Shown here piece by piece: positions 8,296-59,613 of a stretch of 64,000 nucleotides of DNA. Under the pieces are notes generated by a model. The model had not been told where the DNA came from. It did no database searches and saw only the letters and a list, made by a program, of their open reading frames with translations. How positions within the stretch are numbered: position 1 is the stretch's first letter; every line of letters starts with the position of its first letter. The position numbers and the translations under genes are program-made. Origin of the DNA: Morchella semilibera (taxonomy: Eukaryota; Ascomycota; Pezizomycetes; Pezizales; Morchellaceae); the NCBI GenBank assembly GCA_009192285.1, contig CM018608.1, forward strand, positions 1,382,201 through 1,446,200, written 5' to 3'.

Positions 8296-8900
8296 GTATG
8301 AGAGGTTGGGGGATCAATAAGGGTCAATGATCGATTGCGGTTTGTGCTGGCAGAGGATGCGTCCGCCCGCTTGACTAACTGCGGTGACGGAAGCAGGCAG
8401 TCTACGAACAACCAGAATTAAAGAATTTAGAAGCCAGAAGATGACAAGATGGAGAATCTATCCATCTCCTCCTACGACGAAAGCTGTACACCCACTATTT
8501 AACTTTCTCCACCATCACCACACATCACCCACCTCTCCACCCACCAACAACCCGTAAACTCATGGCCCACTCATCGCGCACTCACGCCCCGCACCCCCCA
8601 ACCCGGAGCGGCAAGGGCGAGGGCTTTATAGCTGTGCCTGCGCGCCCCGCAAAGCTTGAATGCTGCACCCGCGGGTTCCTGGGGTGCGCTGGGGTGCGGT
8701 CGAGGGGTGTGCGCGGGTGGTTGCTGGGCCTGCGGTTGGTGGGGAGGGTCTGTGCGGGTGCAGGTTATGACTCGGGAGGGCGCTTTGAGAAGGGGCATCG
8801 ATCGGGGGGATGTGTGTGTATCTTTTTTTTTTATCTTGCTATGTAGGCAGGTACATGTAGGTACATGTGATTCTACCATTCAGTAGGAGACCTTGACAGC
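8296..8900. promoter_or_regulatory. Promoter/5' UTR region of the dynamin-like gene
   Basis: This spacer lies between the dynamin-like start codon and the transposon edge. Part of it (8560-8790) is GC-rich with open frames on both strands, but none has a recognisable motif, so I read it as promoter or leader sequence. One TACATGTA palindrome lies at 8852-8859. Confidence 0.4.
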
Positions 8901-8930
8901 CCTGTGTAAAGCACACCGCCCCCATTGGCT
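8901..8930 (+). repeat. Candidate left terminal inverted repeat
   Basis: This stretch starts CCTGTGTAAAGC and contains ATTGGCT. It partly matches the reverse complement of 12271-12295 (CCTGTAAACCGC...ATTGGGCC). The match is gapped and no target duplication is seen, so it is only a candidate transposon end. Confidence 0.35.
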
Positions 8931-9518
8931 CCTGAGAGCAAACATTGAGGATCCTCGTCTCTCCTGCTGTAGTAGACCATGCTGAAGCGGTGTCTACAAC
9001 GCCGCCCCTCACCACACTACGTGAGCTAGAGTACATGACGAGTGGAAACGGCCCCGAGTGACACTCCATGACGCACCTCTCTCTCTGTAAGTACCTACGT
9101 CTAGGTAGAGAGTACAATGTATCGCACACAGACGTGGCCCCACCGGGCAAACCTGCGTTGCTTTTTGGGCCCGCAGGTGTGTGAGTTGTGATATCAGAAT
9201 ATGGGTACATACATGTATGTATGTAGGTGTTGAGCAAACATCGAAGGCCGGGCTGGAATTGGGACTAGGGAGGTTTCGCAGCGTCCGACAACGAGGTTTT
9301 CGCACTGTAACTTGCATAAAGTCACGCATATGCGGCCATATATAGTGTGGGTCATAAATCATTGATGTCGGATACCAAGCATACCGATAAATTAAGCGGA
9401 TGTATTCGACTAGAAGTTGCATCAGACAAAGGGTTCAAGCAATGTCTCGGCGCCGAGGGTTCCTAGAAATGCGGGGTTCAAGGACAACGTTGAGGAGAAC
9501 ACGATCCAAATCTTCGCC

Positions 9519-10679
9519 ATGGAGGGTTCCGACAATGAAGTAGAAGATGTTTTGATGCTGTTTTCATGCACTTTTGTTGTCATGACTGGTATTATTTGCA
9601 TATCTGCGCATAACACCAATTTGGATCGTACTGACTATCCTTCCTATCGGCCCTCTTTACCAGTACCTATGGGTGAACCGTTCAATATAGATTTTCTCAC
9701 GGAACAGTATTGTATTGAATTCTTCCGATTCAAACATCAAGATATACGTATTATGCTTGGCTTTTTTGCGATTGAGGATTTAATATTCCGGAACGATTAT
9801 ATCTGCGAACCTGAAACAGCATTGTGTGTTGTGCTATTCCGGCTAGCCTCCCCATCCCGTTACAAAGACCTCATGTTCATTTTTCGGAAATCACGATCTT
9901 GGTTGTCAACAATATTCAATGACGTTATATGTCATTTGGTAAGTTATGCCTCATTTGAATATATTACTCAAACTATTATATTAATATGAAATTAGACAAC
10001 CCGATATTCAGCAAAGTTAGATTGGGATCAAAATCGATTATCTCAAGCAACTATTCGGGGTTATACTCAAGCGGTTGAGAATGTTGGAGGTGTACGTGGT
10101 GTTTGGGGTTTTATTGATGGAACCATGAGAGCAATTTGCCGACCACAAGAAAATCAACGCATCTATTACTCAGGGTACAAGAAATGTCATGCTGTAAAAT
10201 TTCAAGCTGTTACGACACCTGATGGTTTAATGAGTCATTTATCTGGCCCTTATCCAAGATCTCGTGGTGATTGGGGAATGTATATTACCTCCGGTCTACA
10301 ACAAAAGCTTCGTGCTATGAATATAGGATTGGATATACAAGAACGTTGCTATCTCTATGGCGATCCAGCCTACACCTTATCGTACGGAGTTATTAGCGCT
10401 TATAAAGCCAATGCGGGACAGCAGTTAAATCCTTTGCTCTACGAAGTGAATGTATTAATGTCGTCATTGAGGGTGAGTGTAGAGCATAATTTTGGAAATG
10501 TTATGAATCTTTGGAGCTTCAACGGATTTCGGAATGACCTGAAGATTGGATTGTCACCAGTGGCCGCATATTTTATTATTTCTGTTTTGTTTACGAATAT
10601 ACATACATGCCTATATGGGAATCAAACAAGCTTAAAGTTCAATTGCGAACCACCATCTTTGTATACATATCTATCCTAG
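9519..10679 (+). CDS. PIF/Harbinger DDE-superfamily transposase
   Basis: Two exons, 9519-9938 and 9996-10679, are separated by a 57-bp intron (GTAAGT...TTAG), giving 367 residues. The upstream frame is open to 9417 only through a non-ATG codon, so the ATG at 9519 is preferred. The nuclease (DDE_Tnp_4-like) motifs are all present: first Asp in GFIDGT (residue 181), second Asp in YGDPAY (263) and Glu in RVSVEHNFGN (303). The N-terminal part would carry the helix-turn-helix for DNA binding. The enzyme cuts and pastes its own element, normally with the Myb-like partner encoded next door. The coding frame looks intact, with no missing catalytic residue. The stop codon overlaps that of the partner gene. 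Confidence 0.9.
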
Positions 10680-11926
10680 TTTTTCTTTAATTCATCAAGT
10701 TTCCCAAATATACGAGCTAAAAGTTCCTCATTCCGTGCAGAAGTCGCAGCATAATCCTCCGCCCGCTGACGCTCCAGCTTCAATCTTACTTCTTCTCGTT
10801 CCTTAACAGCTAATTCTCTCTCAGCAGTCATCTCGTCCCGCAGTTGTCTAAACTGAGTATCAAGTCCTTGATGTAATTCCCCTTGAGACTGTCCTGTACG
10901 GGAAGCTACAAGTTCTCTTACTGCCGTTAACATACCCTGCCCCAAACTTTCTACCGCACCCACCAAACTTTGGGTATCTGCCGAAAGTTTGGTATTCATA
11001 TCATATCTTTTTCTTTTTCTTATCCTTTTTACTCTACGGGCCACTGCTTCATCTCCATCACCCTCGTTCCCTGATATATGCTCTTCCTCCCCCAAAGGTC
11101 TTTTTTCACCTAAGCGCACCAACATATTTCTTCTATGAACAGCTGCCTCTTCTGATTCCCTTTCCAAAGTAGACGGAGCTTTTGCAGCATTAAGAATCAT
11201 ATGTTCCAGCTGTTCTTCATGCTTAATCCATTCATCAACCTTCTGTGACAGTTCATCTTCCCTCTGCACCGTACCTAGAACCACAACAAATTAGTTAACA
11301 TTCAGGTTATTCTACCGGAAATACTATTAAACAGAACAAAATAACTTACCACTTTCCTTTGCTTGAATCCTTACTTCTGCTTTTCTTTTTGCTACCAGAA
11401 CACTTACAGTCTTCTGCGGGTCTCTTAATTTGATATTTATATTTCTTTCCAGCAATTCGCTTATCAAAATCCAGAAGACAGTCTTCTTATTGTGTATATG
11501 CTCAGCTTGGTGGTCGATACAGAGATTCAGAAGTACCAACTTGTCTTCATCTGTAAGATGGGTACGAGTCTTTCTCTGATTGTATATGTGACGCTGAGTG
11601 GATGGTTCACGGGAACCTTGGGATACGGGCTTTGGTTGTGAATCCAGGTCATCAGAAATATTAATAGGTTCAGGCTCTAGCCTTAGGTGATGCTGTAGTT
11701 CAGAGGAGGAGGTGAATTCCGTAAATGCGTTCCCATAGACTCGCTGAAGTGATTGTTGAAGGGGTGTAAACCCGCTAATACCGTGACTTGATGAAGCCTG
11801 ACTTCCTTCAAGTTCCCATTCTCGAGTCATGTCAAGCTCCTCTTGTTCGAGTCTTTCCTCTTCTGCCAGTGAGTTTCCATCTCCTTCAAGATCAACCTCG
11901 TTGATAGAATCCTCAAAGTCCGACAT
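10676..11926 (-). CDS. Harbinger accessory Myb/SANT-like protein
   Basis: Exons 11926-11350 and 11274-10676, with a 75-bp intron (GTAAGT...CTAG), give 391 residues. The N-terminus is acidic. Residues about 120-190 contain HLTDEDKLVLLNLC...KRKAEVR, the spacing of a trihelix/Myb-like DNA-binding domain. The middle has a basic cluster (RRVKRIRKRKRYD) that could act as a nuclear signal, and the C-terminal third is a Glu/Arg-rich coiled coil. In Harbinger elements the Myb-like protein brings the transposase to the nucleus and to the element ends, so its place here fits. It is convergent with the transposase gene, and the two stop codons overlap by 2 bp. Confidence 0.8.
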
Positions 11927-12270: not shown

Positions 12271-12295
12271 CGGCCCAATCAGAGCGGTTTACAGG
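12271..12295 (-). repeat. Candidate right terminal inverted repeat
   Basis: Its reverse complement reads CCTGTAAACCGCTCTGATTG and pairs with the left candidate at 8901-8930. The two differ by short indels, and flanking 3-bp duplications do not match. Confidence 0.35.
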
Positions 12296-12745
12296 ATAGG
12301 CTACATATGTACCCAGAGTCTACTCATGTAGGTAGTTTATGTATCTACTCTAGTTACATGGTATTTTGAACTGGGCCACGCACGTTTCCTGTAGTCTCTG
12401 GACCGTACAGAGTAGGTACCGTACAAGGTATTCCCGTCAATAGTGACCTCACCCTGTTTTTCATGATCATACTGCACGTATCAAGCATCGTATCGGGGAA
12501 GGATGGGTACATAGAGCAGAGTAGAGTAGGAAGATAACTGTCTACATGTAAAAGAAGGATGTATCAATCAATCATAACCATAACCGTAACTACTTAACTA
12601 CTTAACATACACGTACCCCCACCAACAAAAGAAAGAGATCCACCTGTATAATCAAAAAGCAAACAGCGTTCAAAAAATCCACATTACCGAACGCACACAA
12701 AAAAAAGAACGCCTGCTAAAAAAAAATAAACATTTAAGAAAAGGC
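12296..12745. other. Spacer without a recognised gene
   Basis: AT-rich spacer between the transposon edge and the stop of the next gene. It contains several GTAGGTA/TACCTAC words, one TACATGTA (12543-12550) and A-rich runs near 12650-12730. No gene is seen. Confidence 0.5.
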
Positions 12746-15347: not shown

Positions 15348-15460
15348 CGTTTATTCATGCAGGCAGCTAACTAGCGAGCCGAGTCGAGTCGTCGAGCGTC
15401 CCTGATGGACAAAGCTACGTCTTGTCAGTTCTGCATACACATACACATGTAGGCACAACA

Positions 15461-16019: not shown

Positions 16020-16955
16020 CAGCTCCATGAAAGATCGACCTCTAATTGACCAAGTGCTACATCAGCCTTAGTATTATCCCGGATAATTGATGGCTTATGG
16101 GTTATGTCCCTCTTACACACATGCCAATCAATCTCTGATCTCGTATGCAGCGCAGTGGATAGGGCTTCCTTTATTGCCAGAGGGGAGCTCACCCATGCAT
16201 GTACCTATACCAATGCGAGCAGAGTACCCCACCTGCACCATTACCGTTGCTGTGGGTGGGCGTTCCTACATTGCTAGTCCAGGTTGTTATTCAACGTCCA
16301 TACATTACATTACAGGCTACCCGTCAACCCGGTGCATGTGGTACTCGAGGAAGTATGCAAAGAACCAGTCAGTAGTGGCATTTGCTCGGGTTCTAGAACT
16401 CCATCTGTAGCTGCAGTATGAGAAAGTGGGGTGGAATCACTGTGACGAATACCGAGTTAAACCGGGAGACTCGTAGTGATCCCGCCCCCTCTTTTGTGGT
16501 GCGTAGTCCATACTCCTCAGTAAACCAACACAATGTAGGGCGAACCTATAGCAAATTTGGGAGCTGGGGAGTAGAGATATGGTGGGAGCTGCATGATATG
16601 TTGCTGCCCCTAGTCCTTGTCAAAGGTTGTCCCTTTGAAGGTTGAACCCCAAGTCAATGATCATGCCCTGGGGAAATACAGACTCTATAGATATATTCTA
16701 GTATCCTGAATATGACTAAAATACCCATATGCTGTCCAAGCATTGTGTTGTGTTGAGAATTGGTTCTGGGCCAAGCGTTGTGGGGTGGGAATGATAGAAT
16801 GTGCATGTTTCTTGTGCTCTCGGGGATTTCTTCTACAGTGCGTGTACTTTATATGATATATTCTCTAGATACTCCCTACTGATTGATGATTATGATGATG
16901 ATGATGCCCTCTATTCTCTCTCTCTCTCTCTCTACCCTACTCTACTCTACTCTAC

Positions 16956-24004: not shown

Positions 24005-25435
24005 TTTAGGGGAGGAGAAAAAAACATTTCCTTATTTTTCCTTATTCTCTTTTTCTCTTTTCAAAAGTTGGACTTACGTAGCTCTGGAGCATCGAGTATT
24101 ACTTTTATTCCTTTCCCCCCCCGTTTGTAATAATTGCTACCTCACTAGCTAGCTAGCTGCATATTTTTATCTCCCCTCCTTGGCTCTTTAGCCCTTGTCA
24201 CCCCCATTTAACTGTTTCTTTGATATATATCTCTCTCGTCTCCTCTCTGTTGGGTTGTACAATTCTTTCTTTCTTTTCTAAGACAAAAGGGGGTGTGGTG
24301 GGGGGGGGGGGGGGTAAAATCGTTATGCTGGTGGTTACTGAAGTACCGGAGTTTTTTTTTTTCATCACGGACGGTGTATTTTGCTGGACGGTTACGGGAG
24401 GAGTCATCACGAATGTAATTATTTGGACTAGTAGCTATCTATATACATAGCTGGTCATTCTTCTTCTTTATCGTAGGGATGGGGGGGTTTTCCCCCCCTT
24501 TTTTGGGGGGGGTGGGGTGGGAGGTGGGGAGGGGAAGTGGTGATTGTGGTTTGGAATATATATATATTACATGTATCTATATGTACCGGCCGACTGGCTG
24601 GCTGGCTGGTTTATATCACACATGTATGTAATGAGATCGAAGGGTTTGAGGCAGAGTAATGGCCCTAGTGCTCTGAAAAAGCCTGTGGCAGGTGAGCTCC
24701 AACAATATCCTCCCAGAGCGCGCCCATTGAATGTATGTATGGTACTGCTATCAAAGCACTTACCTGCTGGTAGGCTGGCTTGTAATTGTGGGGGAGGGAG
24801 TGTCGGTGTTAGAAGGAGCGTCATGTAGTATTAATTAAGCTGCTTCAGGGCGGGGGGTACATGTACTGTATCTATATGGACTCTATCCAGCGCTACATAG
24901 GGTTATTGGGTCTTGTGGTACTACAGTAGTTTGGTATATATTAGGCTCGCAGTGAATTGTGTAGAAAGAGTCCACTTGGTAGTTATGTAGTCATTAACTG
25001 TGTGGCCAAGTACGCTGTCAGTGCTGGAAAATGCAATGAAATATGTGTGGAAGATCTTTGACTTTCTTAATTTGTATGCTTATATACGTACAGTATAGGG
25101 GGGTTTCACAGCATTTTTTTTATACCAGTAAACCTTGGCATATCAGACGGTGGAAACACAGAATTGTCATTTCTTCAATGGCATAGCATATCTTGATGAT
25201 ATATTTCACAAGATCACCATTCAGCATGTCAATATAGTATTATACCTGTGTCACTATTTCTCAGGCTCGAACTATAACCCCGAGAACTACTCAATGTTCC
25301 GTCACGAGTGATTTCGTATGATTGGCCATTCCAACGTCAATAAATATGTTTATAAACTCCCCTGAAAAATAATAATATTTACTAACCACCCCATGGTTTA
25401 TTTCATGTCTAGAATTAGTTGAGGATCATGGACCT
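24005..25435. other. 3' spacer between convergent genes
   Basis: T-rich 3' UTR of the HECT gene to about 24250, G-runs at 24299-24314, 24481-24530 and 24851-24856, and TACATGTA at 24568 and 24858. No gene is recognised. Confidence 0.5.
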
Positions 25436-27538: not shown

Positions 27539-29770
27539 ATGGCGTCGATCATACAAGAAGGTCAGATGTCTGCCCCTCTCCAGGGCGGGCTTTTTCAAGG
27601 GAAGAATTTCTGGTTGTCAGCTAGAGTTCCTTCACGCAACAGTTACATCCAACAAATAAGAGTCTAACTACCCCACTATACCACCCCATAATGAACTCCC
27701 CGTTGACTTTTTCCAGGCGAATGGTGGAAATGTTGTCCACGCTGAAAAGGACGCCGAGATACTTATTGTGGACCATCTGAGGGACCATTCAGCCGATACA
27801 GCGTAGGACTTCCTTTTCTACAATGTCAAACTTGGTACATTGGCTCATTTCTACGTATAGTTTCTCGTACAAATTTATAGAAAAATCGATACAAAATAAA
27901 AAATTGGAAGACCTGGACGATCACCTAGTTGAACCCACGCAAAAGAAAAAAGCAAAAGCGAGTGGTCTTAAAAGGTATACTAGCGTTACACCACAATGAA
28001 TTTCTCGACTAATATCCTGGTATGCAGCCGCAGCAATTTTTCCCAAGAAGATGATGATATCCTCTTCGCTAAACTAGCGTCTGTTGATTCGGGACATAAT
28101 GGCAATAAAATCTACCACGAGCTCCACGATAAAGTAAGACATCCAGCAAAGTGTTTATTGATAGTTATTCACATAGTCACTCTAGTATCCACATCATACA
28201 ATGCACAGCTGGCGAGGACGCTGGGTTGACCATTATTCTAAGATCAAAGATTCAAAGTTAAAATTGAAGAAATTAAAAGAGAAAATGGAGAAAGAGCTAG
28301 AGGAGGACCTGACACAAAGCGACGAAGAATCGGAATCGGAACCTGCTCCAGCTAGGAATTCCACAGGAAAATTTACCAAGGAGGACGAGGCTATGTTGCG
28401 GAAAGTGGCAGTTGAAATATTGAAAGACCGTGGTGGAGAAATCTATAAAAGCCTGAGTAAAGAAGTAGGTAGCCTTGCCGCCGCAGCATCAACCTATACT
28501 AACTAATGATTTAAAGAACCCAAGCCATACCCCGGAAGAGTTTCAGGCCTACTTTACCAACGTACTGCTTCCCAAAATCACACTTGATAGTATAGCGAAT
28601 TCATCAAACGAGCCCATTTTAAAATCTAAGGATCGCTATAATAAGTCTGAAGATAAGGAAAAGCCTATAGACCTTGCTGATAAGGAGAAGGCTATACCAA
28701 AGTCTGGCCAGGGAAATGAAGAGACAGCATCAGGCTCTCTTGGTCCAAAACGCAAAAAGTTACAACCCCCCGTAAATACTAAATCACCGTTACGCACTAT
28801 GAGTGTGAGAGAGTCGCCAAGGCCCTGGAGCAAGGAGGGGAATAAACAATTGGCAGATCTTCAACCTCACAGGAGTACAGCTAGTTCTTCCACTGGGAAA
28901 ATAGCACCCGCAAGGAATGGTGATAGAAAAGCCACTGGTGAAACAATAACTACAGAAATTTTACAAAATCCGTCACAGCAGGCGCAGGGAAAGAAAGACG
29001 AGATTCAAACCAACAAGGATAAAGATTCCGAAATCACCCCTCTCTCGCATGAGTTTGATATGGCACAATATAAGCAAAAACGCAAACGTGAAAAGATTAT
29101 CCTTACACCAGAGCAAAGGAAAAGAAAAAGAAATTTACACGATGTAATCGAATCTACGCCTGAGGCCAAATCAACTACACAGTCTCGTAGGCTCTCTCCG
29201 GAGCTTGGGGACAGTTCTCAGAAGAGTTCTCCGCCGGTTGTTAAGGACAGGAAAGCCAAGAAGTACGGCGAAATGAGCACACAGGCGTTGTATGACCAGT
29301 TGGATGACAGAGAGTTGCTTGCAGACCTGCAATTCCCTCAGCTTGAGCCTTCTAGCTCACCCAGTTCTCCTCTAGCACCACTACTACCAGAAGAAAAGTC
29401 CACCCCATCATCAAAGCTCTTACCAAAATCTCCTGCGTCTGCGTGGGCATCTTCACCTGACGATAACGATGCCAGCGTAAAAAACTTGAGCGCCTTTCTT
29501 GATTATTGTCAGAAGAAATTTATGACATCCGAAAAAAAGGTCGTTGATGCGATTGAGCGAACTAGTGGAAACAGATTGCTGGTAGAGGTGATATTGGGGT
29601 GTGATGTCACCGGAGAAGCGCTGCCTGATTATCCGGGCATATGGACAGCAGCGCAAGATAAGATACTACTAGGGGCAGATAGCAAGGTGATAAAAGCACT
29701 TGCAGAAACCAAAGGGGAAGAACAAATGCTTAAGAGGATGGAGTTTTTGAATATGTGGAACCTGGCCTGA
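27539..29770 (+). CDS. RAP1: Rap1-like telomere-binding protein (TERF2IP family)
   Basis: Exons 27539-27661, 27717-27802, 27861-27974, 28034-28150, 28209-28464 and 28517-29770 give about 649 residues; introns are 52-59 bp. Order of domains: BRCT-like at residues 18-92 (LFQGKNFWLSARVPSR, NGGNVVHAEKDAEILIVDH, KFIEKSIQ); Myb domain from about 109 (NFSQEDDDILFAKL, GNKIYHELHDK, WRGRWVDHY) to about 156; a second Myb-like module from about 202 (KFTKEDEAMLRKVAVEIL to the segment after NPSHTPEEFQAYF). A long Ser/Lys-rich linker follows, and a C-terminal RCT-like domain covers about 550-649 (FLDYCQKKFM, DSKVIKALAETKGEE, RMEFLNMW). Rap1 joins the shelterin-like complex at telomeres, usually through a TRF/Taz1 partner. 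Several exon ends were chosen because they rebuild BRCT and Myb motifs; the first donor (GTCTAA) is weak. Confidence 0.9.
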
Positions 29771-34761: not shown

Positions 34762-37461
34762 TACATGTATGTATCTCCAGATGACAAAACTTTTAATATC
34801 GATGATGTGATGACTGCTCAGTGGTCATAAGACTAGAGCTTCAAATAAAATTTTAATGCGTGTCTGTGCCTCTTGTCTATGATTCCAGGCGAGGGGTATA
34901 TACTTTTCTCTTTACATGCGAGTCCTTTTGAATATTCAAGGCATGCGGAATATTAACCGAAACCATCGAATGATATCTAGCGTAAGTACGTCCCGCCTGG
35001 GCCGCCGAGCATGCGCCAAAAGATTACCTGAATACTTTAAGTGTGTATGCCTATATACATGTACTTAGCTTCCGATCAGCTTTATGCTTTGTAAGTCGTA
35101 CCACTATCATGCGATTCTCGGTTTCCAGAGTTACTGTAAATTATAGATTGTTGATTTACTTCGGCAAAGGATCAGAATACCACCGAGCCGGTTAGGGTTT
35201 ATGCGCGATGGGGATTAAGTCTAGCGGCATTTGGTAGTGCTGTGTAGCACCGCAGTACTGTCCAGGACGCTGTTTTCAGCGAGTGGCCACGTGGGGGATG
35301 ATACTGCAAGACTACATGTAAGCACCGTCATCTATCATATCATTCATTTGACATATGATGTACCTACATGTACATACATGTACATGTACCCCACGGTCAT
35401 TGTACCTATAGTACATGCTTGCTACATGATGTAGGTATCGGCTAGTGTGGTATAAACTTCTAGCAACGTCAACCCTCCAGCTTCTGCACCTTGAGCCCCC
35501 TTCAACCCCAACTTTATACCCAACAAATACCAATGCATTGACTTCTCATCTTAATAGATACCCCGATTTCTGGCAATTCATCCTTATTTTGAATCCAATC
35601 TCAACTCCTATCAAAAGGTATTTGGATTTATGCTAGGAGTTGGCTTGAGCATATTTCTCTGGGCCTTACCGAGTACATAATGTGATGCATATGCAGGATT
35701 AATTCGGACCCCATGGACCCCCAACTTTAAGGACCCCACGACGCTCTTTAATATATACAACCCCAGATTCCCCAAAGCTAAAAATCCGGGGGGCATGAAC
35801 ATGCGATTATTGATCAATACCCACATTATCGGAGGATTGTACTACATTCCAACCTGGGCGCACCTCTTGATACGGGGGTTACATTCAGCTACGTGGCTCA
35901 GTACCACCGTTAGTCCTTCTTTTGGATCGGTTAGAGACACCATAGTTTTATTCAGAGTCATAGATACATAGCACGACGTTAATATGGCAAATGGTGAGAC
36001 CGCGAGTGACAATCCGTGATCGGTGAGCCTTACTAAACTTTTGATATGTGCTAATTAAGCTTTATTTTTCTAGGAACTTTGATAGCCTTCAGTGTTAAGA
36101 AAAAAACGATTTCTTTAACGGGAATAAAACCGCGTGAAACATTTATGCAAGCACGTACTTATTAGTGTATTCCTGATGACTCGATTACAACTAAGTATTT
36201 TCTACCTACTAAAACTGGCACACGCGTGTGCACGAGTGAGATTATATACGTATAGTTTCTGACTTGGAGTTTAATTTACGCGTGTAGGCTAAACTTACGA
36301 TAAAGCTTGAGATGATAACCCAGCATAAATCCCTTGGCCCAGGATCTTGGCAGCACATTGGTTTCGGATATAATTTGCAGTAATGATGGGTAGTGGCGAG
36401 GGGTATTGAGCTTAATTGGTTGACAAGCGGGGAAAGAAATGCGAAGATTCCGGCGATGAGATACTTATTCCAGGCATGGGAACTGCAGTCCCCTTACATG
36501 CATCATTTACCTCATTGCACATAATAACAGTCAGCCTTAGCTGCAAGGAGAAATATCAGGTCATATATATGTACATACGGACGTTCTATCCGTAATCCTA
36601 AATAAGGTATCTAAAATATAGGTATCCCACTTAACTCATACAAGTAGTTGACTACATGTACCTGGTAGGTAGCAGGGTATGTCGTGTGATAATCATGCAT
36701 GCAAGACCTTTAGTTGGCATGGTTGAACTGATGGCCGGGTACCGCTAGATAGTCCCAGAAACTGGTAGAGTGTGGGGTTGGAAGGAGCATTTTAACTGTG
36801 CGGGGATGCTCTGGAGCCTCAGCCGCAAAGCCAATCCTGGCACAAAGGTTTCTGAGGCCAAGGCACATAATACCTTTTAATGCTACCGGATCTTAATATT
36901 TACGCTCCGCCAGCTAGTATCCTTTCCAGGAATACCTCATGATCCCAACTACATGTAGTACCTGCATTCAGTACCGGGAACAGTTCGGTAGTAGCCGGCC
37001 GGACATACACCATAATACTAGCTGCTGGTTAGACGTCATTACGCACCTAGACTTGATAAAGTTTCACCCTTTATTTTATTTACCTATATCTCGATATTTT
37101 AGACCTCAGAAATACGAACATCTAGTCAATTTGGTAGTTAGCCCTTTATCGAAATCATTCTACCTCGCCCCGTCGATATAACTTTCCGGTCCGGGTCCCG
37201 CTTTTAAGAGTTTTGGTTTTGTTGAAAGTCTTGGAACTGAATTGGTCTGATACGTTTCCATGTCTACTTTATTTATAAACCACAGATCACAAGTGCAAGT
37301 GCAAATCTATACCGTCCGTTAGCAGGGGTCGGGGCAGTGTCCAAAGATCCTATTGGTTTCCTCTGCAGATTCTCTAATATTGCACCCTTGTGCTTGTACT
37401 GATTCGTGCAAATAGTACCTACACAGCTGACAGACCATTGCCAAGAAAGTAGCTACATGTA
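34762..37461. repeat. Cluster of TACATGTA palindromes
   Basis: Exact copies of TACATGTA start at 34762, 35056, 35313, 35365, 35375, 35381, 36653, 36950 and 37454. Three in 24 bp (35365-35388) overlap or abut. Two are extended to the 10-bp palindrome CTACATGTAG (36949, 37453). Confidence 0.75.
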
Positions 37462-37750
37462 GACATGTACCACTCGAACGCGTGCCACTTGGTGCCCGTG
37501 GGGGGGTGGGGGTAGGGGGGGGGGGGGGGGTGCGAAATCAGCAATGCAATTCATCAGCTCCTGCTGCCTTAGAGATGATCAGCTATGGCACATTTGAGTT
37601 CACCTCCACTACGAGTGCGTTGGAGGTTTAAAGCCAGCAACCCCCCTCACTTCCTGCAAGAATTATCTCTCTTCACTAAGGAGCTTTTCTAGCCTTCTAA
37701 GAATTGCCTGCCAGTCATTTTGAGTTTAATCCCAACATATAGCTCAAATC

Positions 37751-39541
37751 ATGGTTTTCCGTATTGGAGATATCGTCACCATCTTGGGACTTGCGAATCT
37801 TGTCCTATCAGCACCAGCTGATTCGCTGGATAGGAGGCAATCAACGATTGTTGATTGCCTTGAAGCAGCCTCAGTCCCTGTGATCTCCAACTCATCTCCC
37901 AACTACGCTGCCGAGGTCATTCCCTATAACCTTCGTACACCATTCTTCCCTATCGCTGCTGCCGTCCCTGAAACTGCTGATCAGGTGTCTTCTGCTGTGA
38001 TTTGCGCCAAACAATTTGGTTTGAAAGTCGCCGCGAGGTCTGGGGGACATTCCTATGCTGGCTTTGGACTTGGCGGTCAAGATGGATCTTTGATGATCGA
38101 TATGAAGACATTCAAATATGTCAACCTTGACCCGGTGACTCAAATTGCTACTATCGGCGCTGGGACTCGTCTCGGTGATGTGTCTTACTCATTGTACAAT
38201 CTGGGGGGACGTGCTTTACCCCATGGTTTATGTCCAGGGTAAGTAGAAATGAATATTGGCTCTAAAGTTCCTTGATAACTGAGTGTGTTACTGGCAGTGT
38301 TGGCATCTCTGGACATGCACTCCATGGAGGCTATGGGTTTGCGTCTCGCATGTGGGGAACAACTTTGGATACAATTCTTGAGATGGAAGTCGTTCTTGCA
38401 GACGGGTCAATTGTCACCACTTCAAGGACTGAGAATGAAGATCTATTCTGGGTATGGCACTTATATATATCCATACTAATTCATTAATGAAATATGGCCT
38501 ATGTTTGAGTAAGCTAACACACGTGACTAGGCTCTCCGTGGTGCCGGTTCTTCCTTCGGTATTGTGACAAAATTCAAGCTCCAAACACTCGAAGCGCCTG
38601 CCAATGGTGTCAGATTTACCTATTCATTCGGATCTCCCACAACTGGTTCAAATATCTCATATCACGTCCAGATCTTCCGGGCTCTGCAAGCATATGCTCA
38701 AACTACCGCTCCGAAAGAACTTTCTTTGAGGTTATGGACCTTGACGGATGTGTTCGAAATCACCGGTGTTTACTGGGGTACCAGGGAAAACTTTGACGCA
38801 GTTATTGCGCCGCTTGTTTCGAACTGGCCTGCTCAAACTACTGTGGTTATCGAGGAGGACAACTGGCTTGACACATTGGTTGCACTTGCAAATGGAGCTA
38901 CTCTCCCTCAGCCGATCGACTATACTCAGCATGATACATTCGTAGGAACCCCCCCCCCCCCCAATAAAGATAGTGGGGATGTCTTAATACATATCAAATC
39001 TTAGCTAACGTCTTTACGTACGATACAGCTTGCGAAAAGTATTGTGGCTCCGGAGCTACTGACATCTAATGCTTTGACTTCATTCTTCAACTATCATCAG
39101 AATAGCAGGAATGCCCCAGTAGTAAGTTTATATAAACATTAAAAGGAAGCAGCCAAAGTACTAACATAAACCTTTTTTAAGCCCTGGTGGGTTATTGGCG
39201 ATCTCTACGGAGGTGCTCACTCGAATATCTCTTCATTCTCTCTTGATTCTGCATCATACGCTGTACGCAACTCGCTCTTCACCTTCCAGCTCTACGCGAC
39301 AACTACGGACCAACCCTTTCCGGCCGAGGGCATCACGTTCATGAACGGCCTGGCGAACTCACTTATTTCAGCACAGCCAGAAACCCATTTCACGGCTTAC
39401 CCCAACTACATTGATCCTACTCTGAGCGCAAGTGATGCCCATAATCTATACTATGGGTCTCAATACCAGAGGCTGCTTAACATAAAGAGGAGTGTAGATC
39501 CTGAGATGAGATTCTGGAACCCACAGGCTATCGGTGTGTGA
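37751..39541 (+). CDS. Secreted BBE-type FAD-linked oxidase (AA7 family-like)
   Basis: Exons 37751-38238, 38298-38451, 38531-38941, 39029-39121 and 39182-39541 give 501 residues. An N-terminal hydrophobic stretch ending in LVLSAPA is a signal peptide. The FAD_binding_4 domain carries both covalent attachment sites: His100 in RSGGHSYAGFG and Cys161 in HGLCPGVGISGHALHGGYG. A substrate-binding middle domain follows, and the C-terminal BBE segment reads NLYYGSQYQRLLNIKRSVDP then MRFWNPQAIGV. Such bicovalent flavoenzymes oxidise oligosaccharides or small secondary metabolites with oxygen, releasing hydrogen peroxide outside the cell; the substrate cannot be told from sequence. Intron 3 begins GTAGGAACC followed by a run of 14 C, which is unusual. 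Confidence 0.92.
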
Positions 39542-42500
39542 AGCATTTTATACTAGTCCATAAGAGCCTGTCATTTTTTTCTTCTTCCTTTGTTAGAAAG
39601 GTCTAGCGTTGCAAAATACTTGTATGTCCCAACAAAAAGAAAAGAAAATAAAAGAGAGTTACATATCGGATCTGGCATCATAAACAAAGACATGCAGAGA
39701 TTGAGCGGTTTCTGTTTGTATCCGTCCACATATAGCAAGTTTACGGTAGGTCCTTGCATCAATTTGGTTTTGTAGCAACAAGTAAATATAGGTTTGATGA
39801 TCATGAACTGTAGTTGGGTGATGGTTCACCTGAAGCTACATGTAGTCATGGGGACCGCTTACTGTAATATAATGTAGATTGATCGGAATCCAAAAAATGT
39901 CGTAATGTACGGATACATACAGGATTACACAGGAGAGTTCTTGGCTCGATCGTTTTTAAATAAAGCTGCTTAGGCGCGTCCGATCCGTCCCGGAGATCCA
40001 TGTAGATAATAGAGAGATCTACATATAACAAATGAGATGTCTTTTAGAATTATGTAGGTACACTATGTGGGCGATTTTGATGATGTTTCCCTTGATAGAG
40101 GAGTACTCGAGTATAGGTCTGCAGATCTAGGAGTTGAGAAACTCAAATTGCAAAAATACATATCTTGGGGGATTTAGAAAGGTCAGCCCACATAAACGGA
40201 GGAAGGGTATTCCAAATGAACTTTCATCCTGATTTTATTATAACTGTGCCCCCTGTAATCCAGGCAATATCTGTAGAATTAAGTGGATGCTTGAAATCAA
40301 TCAACTGCTCGTAAGAACGATGAGCTTTCCGCGAGGATGATTAATAACCAATAACGGCCGGCCCGCAGCAATTCAAGTGCCGGAGGTTGATTTCTAGGGC
40401 CTGGTTGTGATAGTTGGGTTGGGGATTGTGTCCCCTCTTCCTTCTCAACCGTACTCTCCAGGCCTTCATTATCCTGGCCAGACGCTCCAGTAGCAAGAAA
40501 AACAGCTTTATACCCTATCCCATCCACAATTCCCCGTTGCGTCTGGTAGTATAACAGTATCAACAGCGTCCCTATTTCGATTTAGTTAAGTAATCGGCCT
40601 GATTCTTAAAGTTCTGACAGTCGATCGTGAGAATCTTCATTTCCAGCTCATCCATGTGTCTATTGGCTATACCCCCTAATCCAGCTCGTTTGCCAGTGTG
40701 GGGTAGTGGCTATTGAGGTAAGTGAGACGATCAAATTCAATCTAACTCGGGGAGAATATTTTCCGCCGATGACAAGGATTGATCTTCAACCGGCGGGTTT
40801 CGCGGTAACGCCAGTCTTAATTTCATGCTTTATTGATGTATTGGTAGCACAGGTACGATATATCTAGGTTTTTGGATGGCTCCAAATCTCACATCCCAGA
40901 TAGAGAATTACTTCAAGCCCTGATGATTTTGCCTGCTTTTGGTGTGGCAGTTTTGTAATCTAGAAGTTCGGGACCGTTATTAGTGTGTCCCGGTCATAAG
41001 CAAGATGTGGGTGGAGGTCGTCGTACTATAGGAGGAGGAGGAGGAGGAGGAGGAGGAAGATCGATGAGCAGTGAAAGGAGGGCGAGAATACGAACAGATC
41101 ACAAATATCCATAGCTCACAATTTTGTATCCATGTCCCCCTATTTGTTTGTTGTGTGTAGTTGCGAAAATTATTTCGGAAGTCGGGAACAAAGCGAAAGG
41201 TGGGCTTTGGGGGTTTCCGGGATTGCGGTTCGATTTTCCGGGTTGTGTCGTTGGGAATAGGGCCTTGAGGTGCTGCAAAAAAGCCTTCGTTGGGGTAGGT
41301 TTAGATCTATTAGATGATCCCCCCGAGCATTTTGATCTCCAAATCTTCCAACCCTCCACGCGCCCCTTAATCCAGCAGGTTTCATCAAAGATAATCTCCA
41401 AGTCTCAACTGTCCTTGGAATATCACCAACTCTTTCGTTTTCGCATAATCCCACAGTAGTGACCTTGACTAATAAAGGAGCAGAAGGCGCTATCCAAGGA
41501 GTGCGCTATCAGTGAGAAGGCGTGTGGATGACCGAGATAATAGAGATGATGGTCTGTCGCAGCTGGTATAAAATAGGTTTTCTTTGCTTCTGTAACAAAA
41601 GGGAAACGTTTACCTTCGTCGGATAAAACATGAAAAGAAAATGCCAGTCCGGAAGCTCTAATCGGTTACTCCCCTTTATTTTTACTCCTTCGACTTTTAA
41701 ACAATAAATAGCAAGAGAGAGAAAAATTTCAAGAGTATAAAGAAAGCTTCTCGAGTAATTGATATATAGTCGCTCTACGGTACATCGGATATTAGGATAA
41801 TTTATAAGCGGGTGTCAGTTGGTCTGGATCCAGACCCAAAACATCAGCAGGGAATGGACGCTGACGGTCGAGACAATTCAAGTTTCACGGCTGTTAAGCC
41901 GTATTTGTAATTGTATTATACTACACTGTACCAACTTAAATACCAGTATATATATATTTTTCAAGCCATGAAAGGATAAATCCAAACTAAGGATATTAAT
42001 AACCCTAACCCTTATATCGTCTATTCCTATTACTACATGTAGTGAGTTCCATGCTGATCGAGTGATATATTATGATTCTGAATCTCAGGTACTTCCATAA
42101 CGACATCCAAGGGTAATAGAGGTAACTTTGCATGTATCCAATCTTATGGTTATTCCCAGTTGGTGTAGAGGCACATCTTTCGGCATTCCACAGGGGAACG
42201 GAGTGGCGGTGGCCTAAAACTTACTACTGGCTTTTCAATTCCGCCCACGTTCATCACAACAACTCTTCGAATCCAATAATTCCCAGATAAAGGAAAATCT
42301 TATCATCATTCTCGGGATTATGCAGACTTTGAAACCTTGGATCAATGCTCTGAACGAATAGAGAGTCACATGGCATTAGGCGAAGAAGCGGCTTGGCATT
42401 TTCTTCCACTGGCCGGTCTCCCCTCAGTTCTATCTAATTCCGTTGGCCAGATGATGTGACAGGATCATGATTAGTGTCGTCCAACTTCTGATTGACCTGT

Positions 42501-45500
42501 AGAGATATACCGTTCGCTACTGGTGTGATTTTGAACTGTCTCTAGGGCAAGTGTGACAACAGCGGCACATGTTCAGCCGTCCCGAAAAGGCCATGGAGAG
42601 GGTTTACAGAAGTTTGAACGAGGAGCTGTTCATGAGAGAAGAGAAGGTGTGCTGCGGCCACAGTCATATATAATAGAGGTAGTACACAGCTCTGGTGCAG
42701 GAGAAAGAAGAAATCATCAGCTCTACCTGTCACGAATAACAACGAAAACGAAGACGAAATAAATGGAATGTACAGAAATCCTTCATAGAGTACCACAGCC
42801 TTCGGGGTACTTGGAAAGCATTGATTGGCAAGGATCTATTCTCAATCTTGAGTATCATAGAAGCTCTATATCCGTCTATATGCATGTACTAAGTCTTCTA
42901 TAGATATCTCTCGGATTAAAGCACGCGCGGCACAACAGTCAACGATGCAGTTAAAGGGGATCAAAATCATCGTAGAGGTAAAAAATGTATATTTTCATTA
43001 ACCCACTTACCTCCGTTGAAATTTTATATACTAACCTATTTCAAGAGATATATTCTTCTTACTGCTTGAGTTGTAATACCTGGTCCAGGGGGAGTAAACT
43101 ACGCGCAGTCGTTGGACTTACATAGCTTGGTTTGCGTTCTCAGCACGAACAAATACAGAAAAACCGTTACCTGATCTTGGGAGATCACCTAACCGCTGAC
43201 GAATGTCACACATGTTGAAACTGGACGTAAAAGAGCTAAGCTAAAAACAGGCATAAAATTAACACTGTGAACATTTCCAGGGGCGATTTTAATTGTCTTG
43301 AATCAAATGATTAATATATCGGTGTGTACACCGGAAGACCTCCATTTTAGTCAATCTCCATGATAACATGTGCCACAGAGACCAAAACCTCAGTAGTAAT
43401 AGAGTGGGGTTGGTTGGAAGAGATTATCTAATACTCTAGCAGTCAACGGAGAGCTGAGCTTCGGATTCCTGATATTTACTTCTACTTCTTGCAACCAAAT
43501 TCAAGAAGTATTGCTCGAACAAGATGGCGAGGATCATCACCACACACACTCAAGTACTTAGCAAGTGTCGAACCTGATCAATAACCATGGTCTTAGGTGT
43601 CTTGATATTGATCTTCTCTCCGGTCCACGCACTTTGTCTAACATTCATGAAGCCACAAGCACTAGCTAGCTAGATACAGGGCTGCATACAATCAAGCTAG
43701 TTGTTGCATCTCAGATAACTTCACAACTCATCACTCGCGTGTCGGGAAATTCGCTAATCCTCGTGACCAATGATCCAACTACTATAGGATATCACGAGAA
43801 GTTGCAATTGTCGCACATGACTGATAAACGAGAGATAATCACCCTCATACACTTTTCGGATTACTTGAACAATCTTCCGGATCTGCCGGGACAATTTTCT
43901 ACCTCGGGCTACCTCGGTCCTGAAGAATAAACCCAAGAGGAGTGCAAACTCAGTGCCGCCATCCATGCTGCACCAGCCATCTTAAAGATTGAATCTCAAC
44001 AGCCACGGTACGTGGTGCGCACGCCCGCCGGTAATAGCTGATAAGAGCGGGATCATAACATGAGTCGAAAGCATGCGTGGCGAAAAACAGCTCATTCAGA
44101 GCACGGCAGTTCTTTATATGATGACCCGAGGATTAGGTTGAAAAGGAGAATGACCTTCATGCTCGCAATTACAGCACACAGCTCGCCATAATGCAGCTTT
44201 TTCCGAGGGATCCACAGAATGATTCTCTTGTGCCCGTGTATCCTGTCAAAGACTTTGATCCAGTCAACTAAACAAGTTCACGTTTATGAGGAACTCCGGT
44301 GCAAATAAAAGTGCCACCAAAGTTGTAATCCTTTAGAGGTGTCTATCCTTTGGCTATTCGTTCCCCTTAACACACTCTCCTCACTTCCCAATAAAACTAT
44401 ACCCACTATGCAATCCCAGAACCGGTCTACAAACAATGGGCTGTCCGTATCCCGAGCTTTCCGCCTTAATCCTTTGGTTGTGCCAGTGTGCACATGTGGT
44501 ATGAAGGGTTGATGTTCTCCGAACCTGAGTGTTTGCATGGGTTTAATGGTATGATAAACACTTTAAAGTTCATCTGAACTTCTATCTTGAGTTTATTGTT
44601 TTCAGATGAAGAGGCTTGTATACGTATCTCAAGGATCAGGCTGTATGGTTAGGCTTTGGGTTTTGACCTTGAAGGATTTTCGCTGGTCGTTGGCCCTTAA
44701 TTATCCTCACAAATGAGGGTTTACCTCCTATTTCTTAGACCCTCAACGTTTCACTATCACCTATTAGATTTCGCTTGACTGTAGTTACACTACGTTTTTC
44801 TCTGTTTGTATTGCGGTATCAAATTTTGCAAAGAAATCTTTCCATGCCGCGATCCGTGGACGAAGTGTACCACTTACTACCTATCAGCTGCTTTGTTTGT
44901 ATGAAATTATCTCTTCTACAGCCATTTCAGATGTCAGAACTAACGGGGTCCAATCTCATGACTTTCAGACTAAGCATGGAGAAAACACACAAACAAATCA
45001 TTTCCCCTGGCCCTGGGATAACAATCAAAGGCGATAAATATAATATAGAGTTTCATCACTTTTACATTAAGTTGCCGGTGTCAAAAGTAGTAGAACTGAA
45101 TGTTATTTCCGCCTTCTTGTTGTATCCCCCTGTAGCGTCAATATCCATCAACCCGTTTCTAACTCACAGTTATAGGCGAACTGAGGCTCTTCTATGCGGT
45201 TATCAGTCCATAGAGATAGTGTGTAGACCGAAGATGCTATGTGTAAGGCCTAAGTCGATTTCATGTCTACATGTATGTATACCCCGTCTTGTGTGCAGCC
45301 CCCTGTCTATGTCCATGCATACAGCACAAGCTAGTACTTGAACACCTAGAACCCAACCAACTTGCGCATACCACTAAGTCACATTTCCTCAACTTTTCTC
45401 CTGCGATTTTACTGCTGCCACTTACACTCTAGTCCAACTCAGGTATCGTTTACACTCTTCTAATCTTGAGTCCGCCAGAATTAAGCTCGGCGATGGAGAT

Positions 45501-46308
45501 AGTTCAATTGCCAACCCCTGTCGGAAACCGAGTGTTCTACCAGAATTTTCCCGGATGATTGATCCAAGCAAACTGGAAGTTACGACCCAGATGATACTTC
45601 GCTTCGGCAGTCAAACTACAAGGACATCTTTGATTATGAGACGTTGACGTGCTCTCGAACGCCATCCGTCCCTTCCTGCAGAACAAGAGCGTACTGGACT
45701 CCCATTACTATCAGATCATAGTATTGGAAGAAAATGTACTCATATAATATTTTGGTATTATCAGGCCACGGGAGGTATTAGCGGTGAAGTGGTTCTTATT
45801 TCTCTTGATGTCGACTGGGCCAACCAATTTTCTGCGCCATCCTAGAGACGACATATCACTTTCTATTTTTGCTCGACAAAATTACAATAGTCAAGCTCAA
45901 TTAGTTTTGCTATGTCTTGGGACTAGTGTCATGTCCATTCATGTTCATAGTATGGGAAAAGTTATCAAATGGTCAAACGTTAATTCTATTGAGAGATACG
46001 TCCTAGGTATGGCCGTGTATATAAGGCCTTTAGTTCTTCTTTCCAAATCGAATTCTCCCACCACCGTCTAGCATACAGTTCGAACCTCATTCTCATAGCA
46101 CAGACACGAGCTCTCTGACGTGCCTGGCCTCTCTAGCCTTTTCCTCGTTGCTGCTATATCGACAAGCCTGGATCTCTAGGCATTTTCTGCAGTCACTAAA
46201 CTTTACCTACGGCGATATCCTCTCATACTATACTCCAAACACGAAGAAACCAACGCATCAAAATTTCCCACTCGAGCTCCGTACGCAAATACTCGGGACG
46301 TTTCCAAA
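39542..46308. other. Gene-poor region
   Basis: About 6.8 kb with only short, motif-free open frames. Seen: a (GGA)n tract at 41030-41057, TACATGTA at 39837, 42034 and 45268, and AT-rich stretches. The longest frame (44775-45341, +) shows no domain, signal or codon pattern that I trust. I see no transposon gene remnant that I can name. Confidence 0.5.
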
Positions 46309-56146: not shown

Positions 56147-59100
56147 GATAAGGTTTCTAGATATAGGCTTAACTATCTCTATATAACCAATATCTTACGG
56201 TACGGGATAGAAGTAAGCAATAGATAACTGCAGTGTGAGGTGAGGCTGAGAGAGAGGTGGTCAAAATATTCGATATATATATATGAAAGAGCTCGAGCTC
56301 GAGGAAGATGTTATGGGATAATCAACGCCCAGAGGGAAGCTTATATAGTGGCAAGATTAAATGTGTGGGGGAGAGGGGGTGTCCACAACTACATGTAGGT
56401 ACATGTACCTATATGTGATAGTTGACAGTAGGGTACAGATGAAATCACTTTTGCGGACCCGAATAAGAATTTAATATGAGACTGCCAAGAGTCTTAGCGC
56501 TTTTCAAAACAAGCCGAGTACCGGCACAATGAAATTTTGGGACGTGTCAAGACAGTTTAGGTTACGCATTCGTTGCTGATTACTTTAGGTTTCCCGGGCA
56601 GCAGCTCAAGGTTCTTAATTGGAGCGCCTTCTAAAGCTTCTCCTGGATCTAGGTACGTGTTCGAAGTGTTTCTAAGGCATCTGTGCCTACAACCTTTCGA
56701 TTTCCCCGGTACGTAACCTCATGTATGCATCATTGCATATCACTCGGGTGGTAGAGTCACAGTGGTGTAGGTACGAGGCGACCGCTGTAATCTTCTCTCC
56801 GCCGGCCGAACATTTCGTCCCGTTATCCGGCGGTCAATAATTACCCCGCAACAACGGTGTAACATCAAAAGACAGTTCAGCCTACTATGTCCCAGTTGAT
56901 GTGATATCAGATTTCTCCGACGGTAAAACCATACACCGTTACTCTTTGGCCGGCACATTATGACTCCCGTGACGTAGGGGGTGTATTTTACAAACTAGCC
57001 ATTGGATCTAGGGTGTAATCTTTTTAGCACTGGAAACTCTCTTTGAGTTAGAGGTGTATGTGCACTGAGATTATTATATGCTCTATAGCGTTCAGATATG
57101 AGGTGGGGGGGCTACCTAGGTGGGACGGGTGTTTATTAAAACCAGTACGATGGCTCGGGTCAACCTTATCGCGCGTGGTTGCGTTCTGTGTGATCCAGGG
57201 ATGTGAGGAAGAATTAAAACTATTGGGGTGGATTTATAGCATCGAGAATAGGACTTAATGAGCGCCATTTATAGTAAGGGGTAAGTTATAACGGTACTGA
57301 TCCAAAGGATCTAAAGACAACTGCATAGTCTGTGCTGCGCACATTGAGACGTGATTCCGGCCATACTAATAGCATTATAGGTCAGAATAAGCCCGAGTGA
57401 GAAGGTGTGCTCTAGACCTGGGCGTCTGCTATTTATGCATTGTAGATTGCAGAAAGGTCAGCAGCATCATATGTATTCTTAAGATGGATACATGTAGTTG
57501 CGTCTTTTCCATGGTACACCTTTGTTTGGACTTACGTACTGGGGTCTCTCGGGTTAGAACACTTCAGGTGACCGCTCTGTCCAGAATAGTGATGAGCACA
57601 AGACGATACTTGGGCGTGTTTCACCTTTTCCTGTGTACTGCTAAGGGGGTCTCATATAGTTACTAACTTAACGGGTTTCAGAATTGCCAACACCTGATGT
57701 AAAGCCCCAGGACCCTAATCTTGACGTTACTTGGGATAGTACGGCTGCTGTCGTAGTGGCTCCACGGTTGCTTGATTTATTCCCGGAGGCGGATTGGAGT
57801 ATGTACAAGGCCAAGGATAATAGAGGAGAATAGAGACTTTAGGCCAAGCATCAATTTTGAGAAAATCTATTTGCCCACCCAGCAAAAGGATCCCTGCAAA
57901 TAGTAATTTCTACCAAAAGTCGACGGCTCGACAAGGCGCTATGGAGTACTCAGGTAAGATGATGCACATTCAATGATTTATCAACCACCAGATGGTTACA
58001 TCAGGTTATTTCCGGGTTAATATGAGCGTTTAGATTCTTATTGCGACTAGGAACTAAAGAAAAAAGAGTCTGATATTAATTCTTTTATGCGACCTTTACC
58101 ACTTATTTTTACTACTTTGCAGTGACTTCTCCCCTGTGGGGCAAACCTTTAGTATCCAGACATATCTAGAATTCTAGGCAATAAAAAGGAATATCTACTC
58201 GAAACTCCCACCTAGAAAGTATTTTGGGTTGAGGTACCGCAAAAACTGGACAATAACGAACGGGGCCGGACTGAGACCGCAGGCTGAACACTGCCTTCTT
58301 ATTTGTCGAAGGGTGTTGATCATCATCAATTGAGCCTCAACCACAACCGCCAAAAGAGTAAGTTTGCATGATTCTAACCAGTGAGGGTACAGGATTCGTT
58401 TTTGCGGTACTTGGGTGTATTTAGGCGTTGTTAAGTCAAAATGTGCATCACTTTCCAACACCCTGGGTACATGTGTATAAACCTCCAATTACATATATGT
58501 AGTAGTCTACAGCTATATATAGCAGTGCAAGTGCCTAGGATAACTGTGGCATTTTGATTTTCTCTAGTTTCCATACAAAAAGCAGTCCTCTGAATTAAGT
58601 TGACGCTATATGTAGTTGCTGTTGTTTATGCGGCTCTGCTCGAGCCTAGTCCAAAACTACACTAACATTTAATCATAGACAATCACTCGAAACCTAGAAA
58701 GGTCCCTTCCGTTTTTGTTTCGTTTTCTCTAGCTCCAGGTATATGTATTTCTTTGTCTTGTGTCGGACAAGGCCTTGTCTTGTGCCCACCACTAGCTCGG
58801 CGTAATGTAGGCACAGTATAATTCTAATCACCCTACTACCTTACATGTATCTGCGCCTCATCTAGCCGCGAAACATTTAGCAAAGTCTTGGCATTTTTCT
58901 ATGAGGTACACATACATGTAGTGCGTTGATTAAGTCCCGGAGATGAGGGCTAGCGGCATCTAGAGATTTGATGACTGTCGATGACTTAACACCTATGGGG
59001 AGTACATGTAAATATAAGTACATGTATGTATATTCTCTTGTAACAGTTAGCTAACCGATTAGTTGAATGTACGCTGCGCAATTTCCGCGTTTAAGCTTTT

Positions 59101-59613
59101 TGATGTCTCGGGAGGTACCACATGTTTAAACCATACATGTAGATGCCATCAGTTTAGGTTTGTGATTTCTGGGAGTGGTCAGGGAATCATTTCCTGAGGG
59201 TGGTTCCTTCTCTCAGAAGCCGACTAGCCCCCACTTGACCATGACGTAGAGAGAGTGTGTAAGACGAAACATCACAACTTTGATTCTTTATCGCAGCTCA
59301 GGCAAGCGAAAAACCATCGTGTGTAGGAAAAAAAGAAAGTTTCTGCTAACTTTTGCAGTTGACCGCTTAACGAAACAATACCACCCCCGCACTAGCCCCA
59401 TACAGCAGCCTATCGCGATTCGCAAGAGACGCAAGGTGCCACGAGGACAAGCACCTGCAAGAAGCTAGCAACCGCCCCTCTAACTGAACTCTCACCTGCT
59501 TCCTCCCTCCTCCCCCGAAATACACTTCACCACTACCGTCTCATCTCCCCCCTTTCACCAAGTGTTTCTCTATATAATTATCTCGCATAGGAAAACCCCC
59601 ATATTTTATCTAA
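56147..59613. other. Gene-poor region with palindrome cluster
   Basis: About 3.5 kb between divergent genes, with short frames only. It contains eight TACATGTA palindromes from 56390 to 59141, listed separately. The last 150 bp before 59614 are CT-rich and look like the leader of the GMPPA-like gene. Confidence 0.5.
56390..59141. repeat. Second cluster of TACATGTA palindromes
   Basis: Exact copies start at 56390, 56400, 57489, 58842, 58913, 59003, 59019 and 59134. The first pair is spaced by 2 bp as CTACATGTAGGTACATGTAC. Confidence 0.75.

Follow-up and report, generated by a model that had tools for sequence, protein, structure and literature searches.

A genome-wide eight-base palindrome in the noncoding DNA of Morchella semilibera and its possible origin in Tc1/mariner-type excision

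We analyzed a 64,000-base stretch of the Morchella semilibera genome (GCA_009192285.1; contig CM018608.1, here C6, positions 1382201-1446200), hereafter the window, in which the eight-base palindrome TACATGTA is present 25 times. The over-representation of this word is real and genome-wide, it is confined to noncoding DNA in the sequences that we sampled, and the copies carry an extended context that is the target context of a transposon. Tc1/mariner-type elements with matching ends and this target context are found in the same genome. These results suggest that the copies of TACATGTA are, on balance, probably for the most part excision footprints of Tc1/mariner-type elements, including autonomous transposons and miniature inverted-repeat transposable elements (MITEs).

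Abundance and distribution of the palindrome

A sequence-only reading of the window had counted 25 copies where chance would give about one to two. We recovered all 25 at the same start coordinates and detected no 26th. Dinucleotide shuffles of the window (n = 100) yielded a mean of 0.92 copies and at most 4, and a third-order Markov model of the window predicted 2.16; by the latter comparison TACATGTA is the most over-represented 8-mer palindrome of the window. Five copies had been described as extended to CTACATGTAG, and their flanks were checked and agree. The copies are listed below, where a flank TA is a TA at outside bases +3 and +4.

8852..8859, strand (.), TACATGTA with right flank TA; sequence match
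9210..9217, strand (.), TACATGTA within a full TAnnTACATGTAnnTA; sequence match
12543..12550, strand (.), TACATGTA, flank TA absent; sequence match
24568..24575, strand (.), TACATGTA with right flank TA; sequence match
24858..24865, strand (.), TACATGTA, flank TA absent; sequence match
34762..34769, strand (.), TACATGTA within a full TAnnTACATGTAnnTA; sequence match
35056..35063, strand (.), TACATGTA within a full TAnnTACATGTAnnTA; sequence match
35313..35320, strand (.), TACATGTA, flank TA absent; sequence match
35365..35388, strand (.), cluster of three TACATGTA (35365, 35375, 35381; spacing 10 and 6 bp); sequence match
36653..36660, strand (.), TACATGTA, flank TA absent; sequence match
36950..36957, strand (.), TACATGTA in CTACATGTAG; sequence match
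37454..37461, strand (.), TACATGTA in CTACATGTAG, left flank TA; sequence match
39837..39844, strand (.), TACATGTA in CTACATGTAG; sequence match
42034..42041, strand (.), TACATGTA in CTACATGTAG; sequence match
45268..45275, strand (.), TACATGTA with right flank TA, in the mechanical open reading frame 44775-45341; sequence match and hidden Markov model
56390..56407, strand (.), pair of TACATGTA 10 bp apart (56390, 56400) with two bases between, the first in CTACATGTAG
57489..57496, strand (.), TACATGTA, flank TA absent; sequence match
58842..58849, strand (.), TACATGTA, flank TA absent; sequence match
58913..58920, strand (.), TACATGTA, flank TA absent; sequence match
59003..59026, strand (.), pair of TACATGTA 16 bp apart (59003, 59019); sequence match
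59134..59141, strand (.), TACATGTA, flank TA absent; sequence match

Across the genome (56.76 Mb; 56,756,124 bases in 23 contigs), TACATGTA was found 22,206 times and the reversed word 3,723 times; the base composition of the window alone would predict about 1,060 copies. The number of distinct sites is somewhat lower than 22,206 because some contigs are duplicated in the assembly. Indeed, the contig pairs C9/C10, C12/C13, and C21/C22 present like features at nearly like places, as judged from tRNAs for the first two pairs and from transposases and MITEs for all three. These duplicates do not appear to be alleles: among ten pairs of stretches from C12 and C13, eight were identical and two differed by small, mostly one-base, insertions or deletions, so that they offer no polymorphism.

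Statistics were computed on a sample of 22 stretches (208,390 bases). It combines the window with ten stretches of 10 kb from C12 and four of 5 kb, to which loci from earlier searches were added, and it is non-random, with half of it coming from one contig. Densities omit five stretches that had been picked for carrying TACATGTA (18,224 bases, 9 copies), leaving 190,166 bases and 102 copies. Coding DNA was called with a seven-state hidden Markov model (HMM) trained on the sample, which finds few short exons and places gene borders roughly. In the noncoding sample, the 102 copies compare with 7.7 expected under a third-order Markov model, a 13-fold excess where a match to such a model had been named as grounds for abandoning the claim. 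TACATGTA is also the most over-represented 8-mer palindrome of this sample, followed by ATATATAT (51 vs 12.9 expected), and the remaining 255 palindromes pooled reach 752 occurrences vs 586 expected.

The window reading had further placed every copy outside exons, and no copy falls within DNA that the HMM calls coding, although this model misses genes with short exons. One such gene, the open reading frame at 37751-38242 with a Pfam match to an FAD-binding domain, was missed and contains no TACATGTA. The copy at 45268 lies inside a mechanical TTG-start frame of 188 amino acids that is noncoding according to the HMM. In the sample, 48.7 of the 190.2 kb were called coding and contain none of the 102 copies, and the enrichment is thus confined to noncoding DNA; absence alone does not establish avoidance, because coding composition predicts only 0.31 copies in this 49-kb coding sample.

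Other words are raised as well. Among palindromes of the noncoding sample, ATACGTAT was observed 13 times (1.7 expected) and TAAGCTTA 7 times (1.7 expected), and several TAnnTA words are up 1.2- to 2-fold. The non-palindromic pair ATCACTCG/CGAGTGAT is over-represented in the sample (35 vs 5.4) and on one strand of the window (9 vs 0.8), and TTGGACTT is present 9 times in the window vs 0.8 expected.

Flanking context and Tc1/mariner-type elements

Beyond TACATGTA itself, the copies have in common mainly a T and an A at outside bases 3 and 4 on both sides, which gives TAnnTACATGTAnnTA with its two n positions nearly free (all 111 copies of the sample, with 221 flanks of sufficient length). Among 110 copies for which both flanks were available, 18 have a flank TA on each side, 45 on one side, and 47 on neither. 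Past about +6 the flanks are close to background in information, with a maximum of 0.036 bit over positions 7 to 20. Copies are also clustered: 2,666 pairs lie within 38 bp genome-wide, vs about 270 under random scatter. In the first 100 of these pairs, all on C1, 19 have a spacing of 10 bp with varied intervening bases, a peak that is expected where both TAs of a TAnnTA are hit.

Matches to the DDE_3 transposase domain number 69 genome-wide (E up to 0.001), some of them being the same element on duplicated contigs. Three element copies have clean ends of the form TA-CAGC...GCTG-TA; two were scanned and encode Tc1-type transposases with DDE_3 and HTH_Tnp_Tc3_2 domains, and the third lies at another DDE_3 match. 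Their target flanks are TAGG-TA-CCTA, TATG-TA-CCTA, and TACG-TA-CATT, of which the last fits TAnn on one side only. A MITE family of 175 bp shares this organization (TA-CAGTATG...GGTACTG-TA). A first look gave at least 269 candidates for it; 40 of these were scored, and the listing contained 41 matches. The 56 MITE sequences that we compared (L013:6718-6889 and 55 copies, L041-L060 and L077-L111) have a mean divergence of about 3%, and insertions recur at the inner ends of their terminal repeats. A separate 0.5-kb family resembling long terminal repeats (LTRs; L035:2101-2601 and 337-817) has 292 first-look candidates, occurs in pairs about 5.6 kb apart, and bears a variable array of TTCAGG-type hexamers.

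We built a target matrix from the insertion flanks of this one MITE family (53 left and 47 right) and compared it with the flanks of TACATGTA. At +1, the frequency of A is 0.15 in MITE flanks and 0.14 at TACATGTA sites, vs 0.24 at other noncoding TAs. The same correspondence holds for T at +3 (0.52 and 0.55, vs 0.32) and for A at +4 (0.48 and 0.52, vs 0.31), and TA at +3/+4 reaches 0.367 at TACATGTA sites vs 0.113 at other TAs. The log-odds of sites and MITEs are correlated (r = 0.67, permutation p = 0.00055; 0.72 in an earlier, smaller set). Scored under the MITE matrix, TACATGTA sites have an area under the curve (AUC) of 0.675, and the MITEs themselves reach 0.690 when left out one at a time. 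Controls scored lower: 0.511 for TAs located 15-60 bp away, 0.516 for other TA....TA words, 0.565 for TATATATA, and 0.598 for CATGTA without a preceding TA. The AUC of the sites against that of the local controls therefore assigns the flank context to the word and not to its neighborhood, and this context is that of a transposon target. A regional lattice of TAs as the source of the match is ruled out by the same local controls.

The flanks of the MITEs also contain TACATGTA more often than expected (6 in 2,221 bases vs 1.6, Poisson P = 0.006), with the limit that these copies are not independent, since two of them overlap and the target TA itself is part of two. Two of 51 MITEs are inserted in the TA of a TACATGTA, which is about the chance level. 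Within the window, one relic related to this family was detected:

16412..16505, strand +, old relic akin to the Tc1/mariner-type MITE that defines the target; blastn matches at 16414-16441 (E 0.002) and 16472-16500 (E 0.008), borders by eye

Two other features of the window are of a different kind. Remains of a DDE_Tnp_4 transposase, which we take to be of the PIF/Harbinger type, lie near TACATGTA copies at 9417-10679 (Pfam match in the open reading frame 10125-10679), and the frame at 28475-29770 contains a Rap1 C-terminal domain and possibly encodes a telomere protein.

Excision footprints and competing explanations

We propose that an element would insert at a TA, preferably inside TAnnTAnnTA, and that this TA would be duplicated. 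Excision would then leave two bases of each end, CA on the left and TG on the right, and host end-joining would seal the gap, so that a TA would become TA-CA-TG-TA and gain six bases. Given elements of the form TA-CA...TG-TA, two TAs with two bases from either element end between them spell TACATGTA. Tc1/mariner excision proceeds with a two-base stagger. Over a long time, repeated visits would have marked noncoding DNA with some 20,000 scars, for the most part off coding exons, and one scar per jump could yield such numbers over millions of generations. In this scheme we infer the two-base cut, the end-joining, and the origin of the words by six-base insertion. Tc1/mariner elements are described as inserting at TA and as leaving, after excision and end-joining, a few element bases between two TAs (PMC2874221, PMC7913693); the footprints that repair leaves are 2-4 bp long, with the duplicated TA on either side (PMC7913693, PMC2874221). 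TACATGTA itself has been recorded as the excision footprint of Tc1 in C. elegans (Eide and Anderson 1988, as cited in PMC3520976). No report of a genome-wide set of TACATGTA scars was found among the titles and abstract openings listed.

The words neighboring TACATGTA fit scars only in part. Those that differ by one transition are in excess (81 vs 38.7) and partly retain the flank signature (45 of 168). TACATA, a check for one-sided footprints, was observed 233 times vs 143 expected, though other TAnnTA words are similarly raised. In contrast, neighbors that differ by one transversion show no excess (66 vs 68), which weighs against excision footprints, as mutations in the MITEs comprise 171 transitions and 80 transversions (50 of the 56 sequences, six divergent ones being excluded).

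Several other results count against this origin. The count of TACAGTA, the three-base footprint, is barely above expectation (32 vs 23), and the MITEs are somewhat unlike on their two sides, with TA at +3/+4 in 20 of 53 left and 11 of 47 right flanks. No clean before-and-after pair differing by six bases was present among 56 MITE and 18 LTR sequences. Only one of the 56 MITEs, the divergent L092, has TACATGTA at an ancestral TA, and there the insertion is of 11 bp, not 6. The other clean insertions observed at TAs within MITE bodies have the fillers GCTA, TAT, T, TG, C, and TACA, not CATG, and the same is true of one further insertion of 8 bp (80 bases viewed per match). At 1% per noncoding TA and 18 interior TAs per copy, the MITEs should hold about 9 to 10 copies of TACATGTA. 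The 18 LTR sequences (9.0 kb, from the 292 candidates) have none where noncoding density predicts 6.5, and in C. elegans the footprint is termed rare (PMC3520976).

Some of these points have qualifications. The count expected in MITEs would be lower if these elements, 3% diverged, are younger than the scars. Several of the MITE-body insertions at TAs lie at the inner ends of the terminal repeats and may have another cause. Insertions away from TAs (TCTTAA, CACGTG, CGG, GGG, and 11-bp duplications) were also observed. The varied inserts in MITEs fit scars only in part. In L080, a copy of TACATGTA lies just beyond the break point of the element, and a 165-bp repeat at 9262-9430 of the window, which recurs elsewhere in the genome, has no copy longer by six bases among the 11 other matches listed. 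Our confidence in excision footprints is near one half because no clean six-base pair was found, other fillers occur, and transversion neighbors show no excess.

The sequence-only reading had offered a protein-binding site, a target of recombination or methylation, and a word spread by an unknown repeat; the first of these is retained as the main rival and not as the best reading. Under this explanation, which we regard as possible but the less probable one, an abundant DNA-binding protein would act as a homodimer at TACATGTA, its recognition sequence would extend to the outer TAs, and pairs 10 bp apart would place two dimers on one helix face. The same consensus is described in Phytophthora as a promoter motif correlated with expression, its inverted repeat being taken to suggest a homodimer (PMC3520976). 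The dominance of the exact 8-mer, with transversion neighbors unraised, and the near absence of the word from the LTR and MITE repeats examined are consistent with a binding site.

The position of copies relative to genes bears on this explanation in both directions. At 500-2000 bp from called genes, copies are denser upstream (39 in 29.2 kb) than downstream (17 in 26.6 kb), and divergent spacers are the richest (1.29 per kb, vs 0.51 in convergent and 0.37 in tandem spacers; 55 of the 102 copies lie between two called genes, and the 47 at stretch edges have a density of 0.86 per kb). However, few copies lie within 500 bp of called coding ends on either side (2 upstream in 19.7 kb and 3 downstream in 18.1 kb, thus 5 in 37.8 kb), figures that rest on rough gene models and may shift with missed first exons. 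The distance table takes in 91 of the 102 copies, the other 11, by subtraction, being in stretches without a called gene. This bias could be explained by insertion into open chromatin as well as by regulation. Moreover, some 20,000 exact sites are, in our judgment, very many for one factor, and a binding site leaves unexplained why the outer context is that of a transposon target. We searched the genome for an Irx-like TALE homeodomain and did not find one: the only Homeobox_KN match reads WFINARRR in helix 3, located in the next exon, and is not of the Irx type, for which helix 3 reads WFANARRR. A binding protein may instead belong to another family.

A combination of the two is unlikely, though it would suit the transposon-like context and the upstream bias together: the words would have begun as transposon scars, some of which would since have been retained with a regulatory or chromatin role. 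That TACATGTA is carried by a dispersed repeat or microsatellite family is very improbable. Words resembling TACA/TGTA, such as TACATACA, are indeed raised too, but the absence of flank information past about +6 and the varied nn fillers largely refute such a family, and a self-comparison of the sample yielded just 18 rows. A comparison of window positions 33500-46000 (12 of the 25 copies) with the genome gave one match of 85 bp, a result that we set aside as weak because the query's own position was not recovered. The third idea of the sequence-only reading, a word spread by a repeat, thus loses its carried repeat, as no flanks are shared, and keeps mobile elements as the probable writers of a word that is their scar; that reading is in part supported, and our preferred explanation lies near this third idea. 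Finally, although all 102 sampled copies lie in DNA called noncoding, an effect of the composition of AT-rich spacers is refuted by the 13-fold excess over the third-order noncoding model and by the genome-wide count of the reversed word.

If TACATGTA does represent excision footprints, scars that are usually studied singly become readable genome-wide and would reveal the past of a cut-and-paste family most of whose copies are gone, together with its choice of targets and its mode of repair. It would also warn that an over-represented palindrome of spacers need not be the site of a regulator. If the rival is true, this fungus has a very widespread DNA-binding protein. More speculatively still, the genome might be inscribed with some 20,000 scars of one type that constitute a fossil record, and the TACATGTA motif of Phytophthora, and possibly words of other eukaryotes, might likewise be scars mistaken for sites, some of which have since become regulatory.

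Comparison with known systems

HIP1, the highly iterated palindrome of cyanobacteria, is common in coding DNA too. It resembles TACATGTA in being a single 8-bp palindrome hugely over-represented genome-wide, and it differs in that none of the 102 copies sampled here is in called coding DNA and that our word carries a transposon-target context. The target of Sleeping Beauty/ZB-type Tc1 elements, given as ATATATAT in PMC7913693, is likewise a palindromic AT-rich context around TA with T at +3; here, in contrast, A is favored at +4 and not at +2, and the preference is for TAnnTAnnTA.

Motif-1 of Phytophthora is the identical word, is very abundant, and lies upstream of genes, but it is proposed there to be a transcription-factor site, as described in PMC3520976. 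It was sought in 1-kb upstream regions (PMC3520976), whereas few copies in M. semilibera lie within 500 bp of called coding ends. Its authors propose that a TALE homeodomain factor is perhaps involved, and they considered the Tc1 footprint and dismissed it for the abundance and conservation of the motif (PMC3520976).

The Tc1 footprint of C. elegans (TA-CATG-TA) is likewise the identical 8-mer and consists of a duplicated TA enclosing two bases from either element end; Tc1-type elements with CA...TG ends are present in this fungal genome. That footprint is rare in C. elegans (PMC3520976); here it would be the dominant palindrome of noncoding DNA, with about 20,000 copies recognized from sequence alone. 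The Tc1 footprint itself is thus already known, and it is the scale observed in M. semilibera that would be new.

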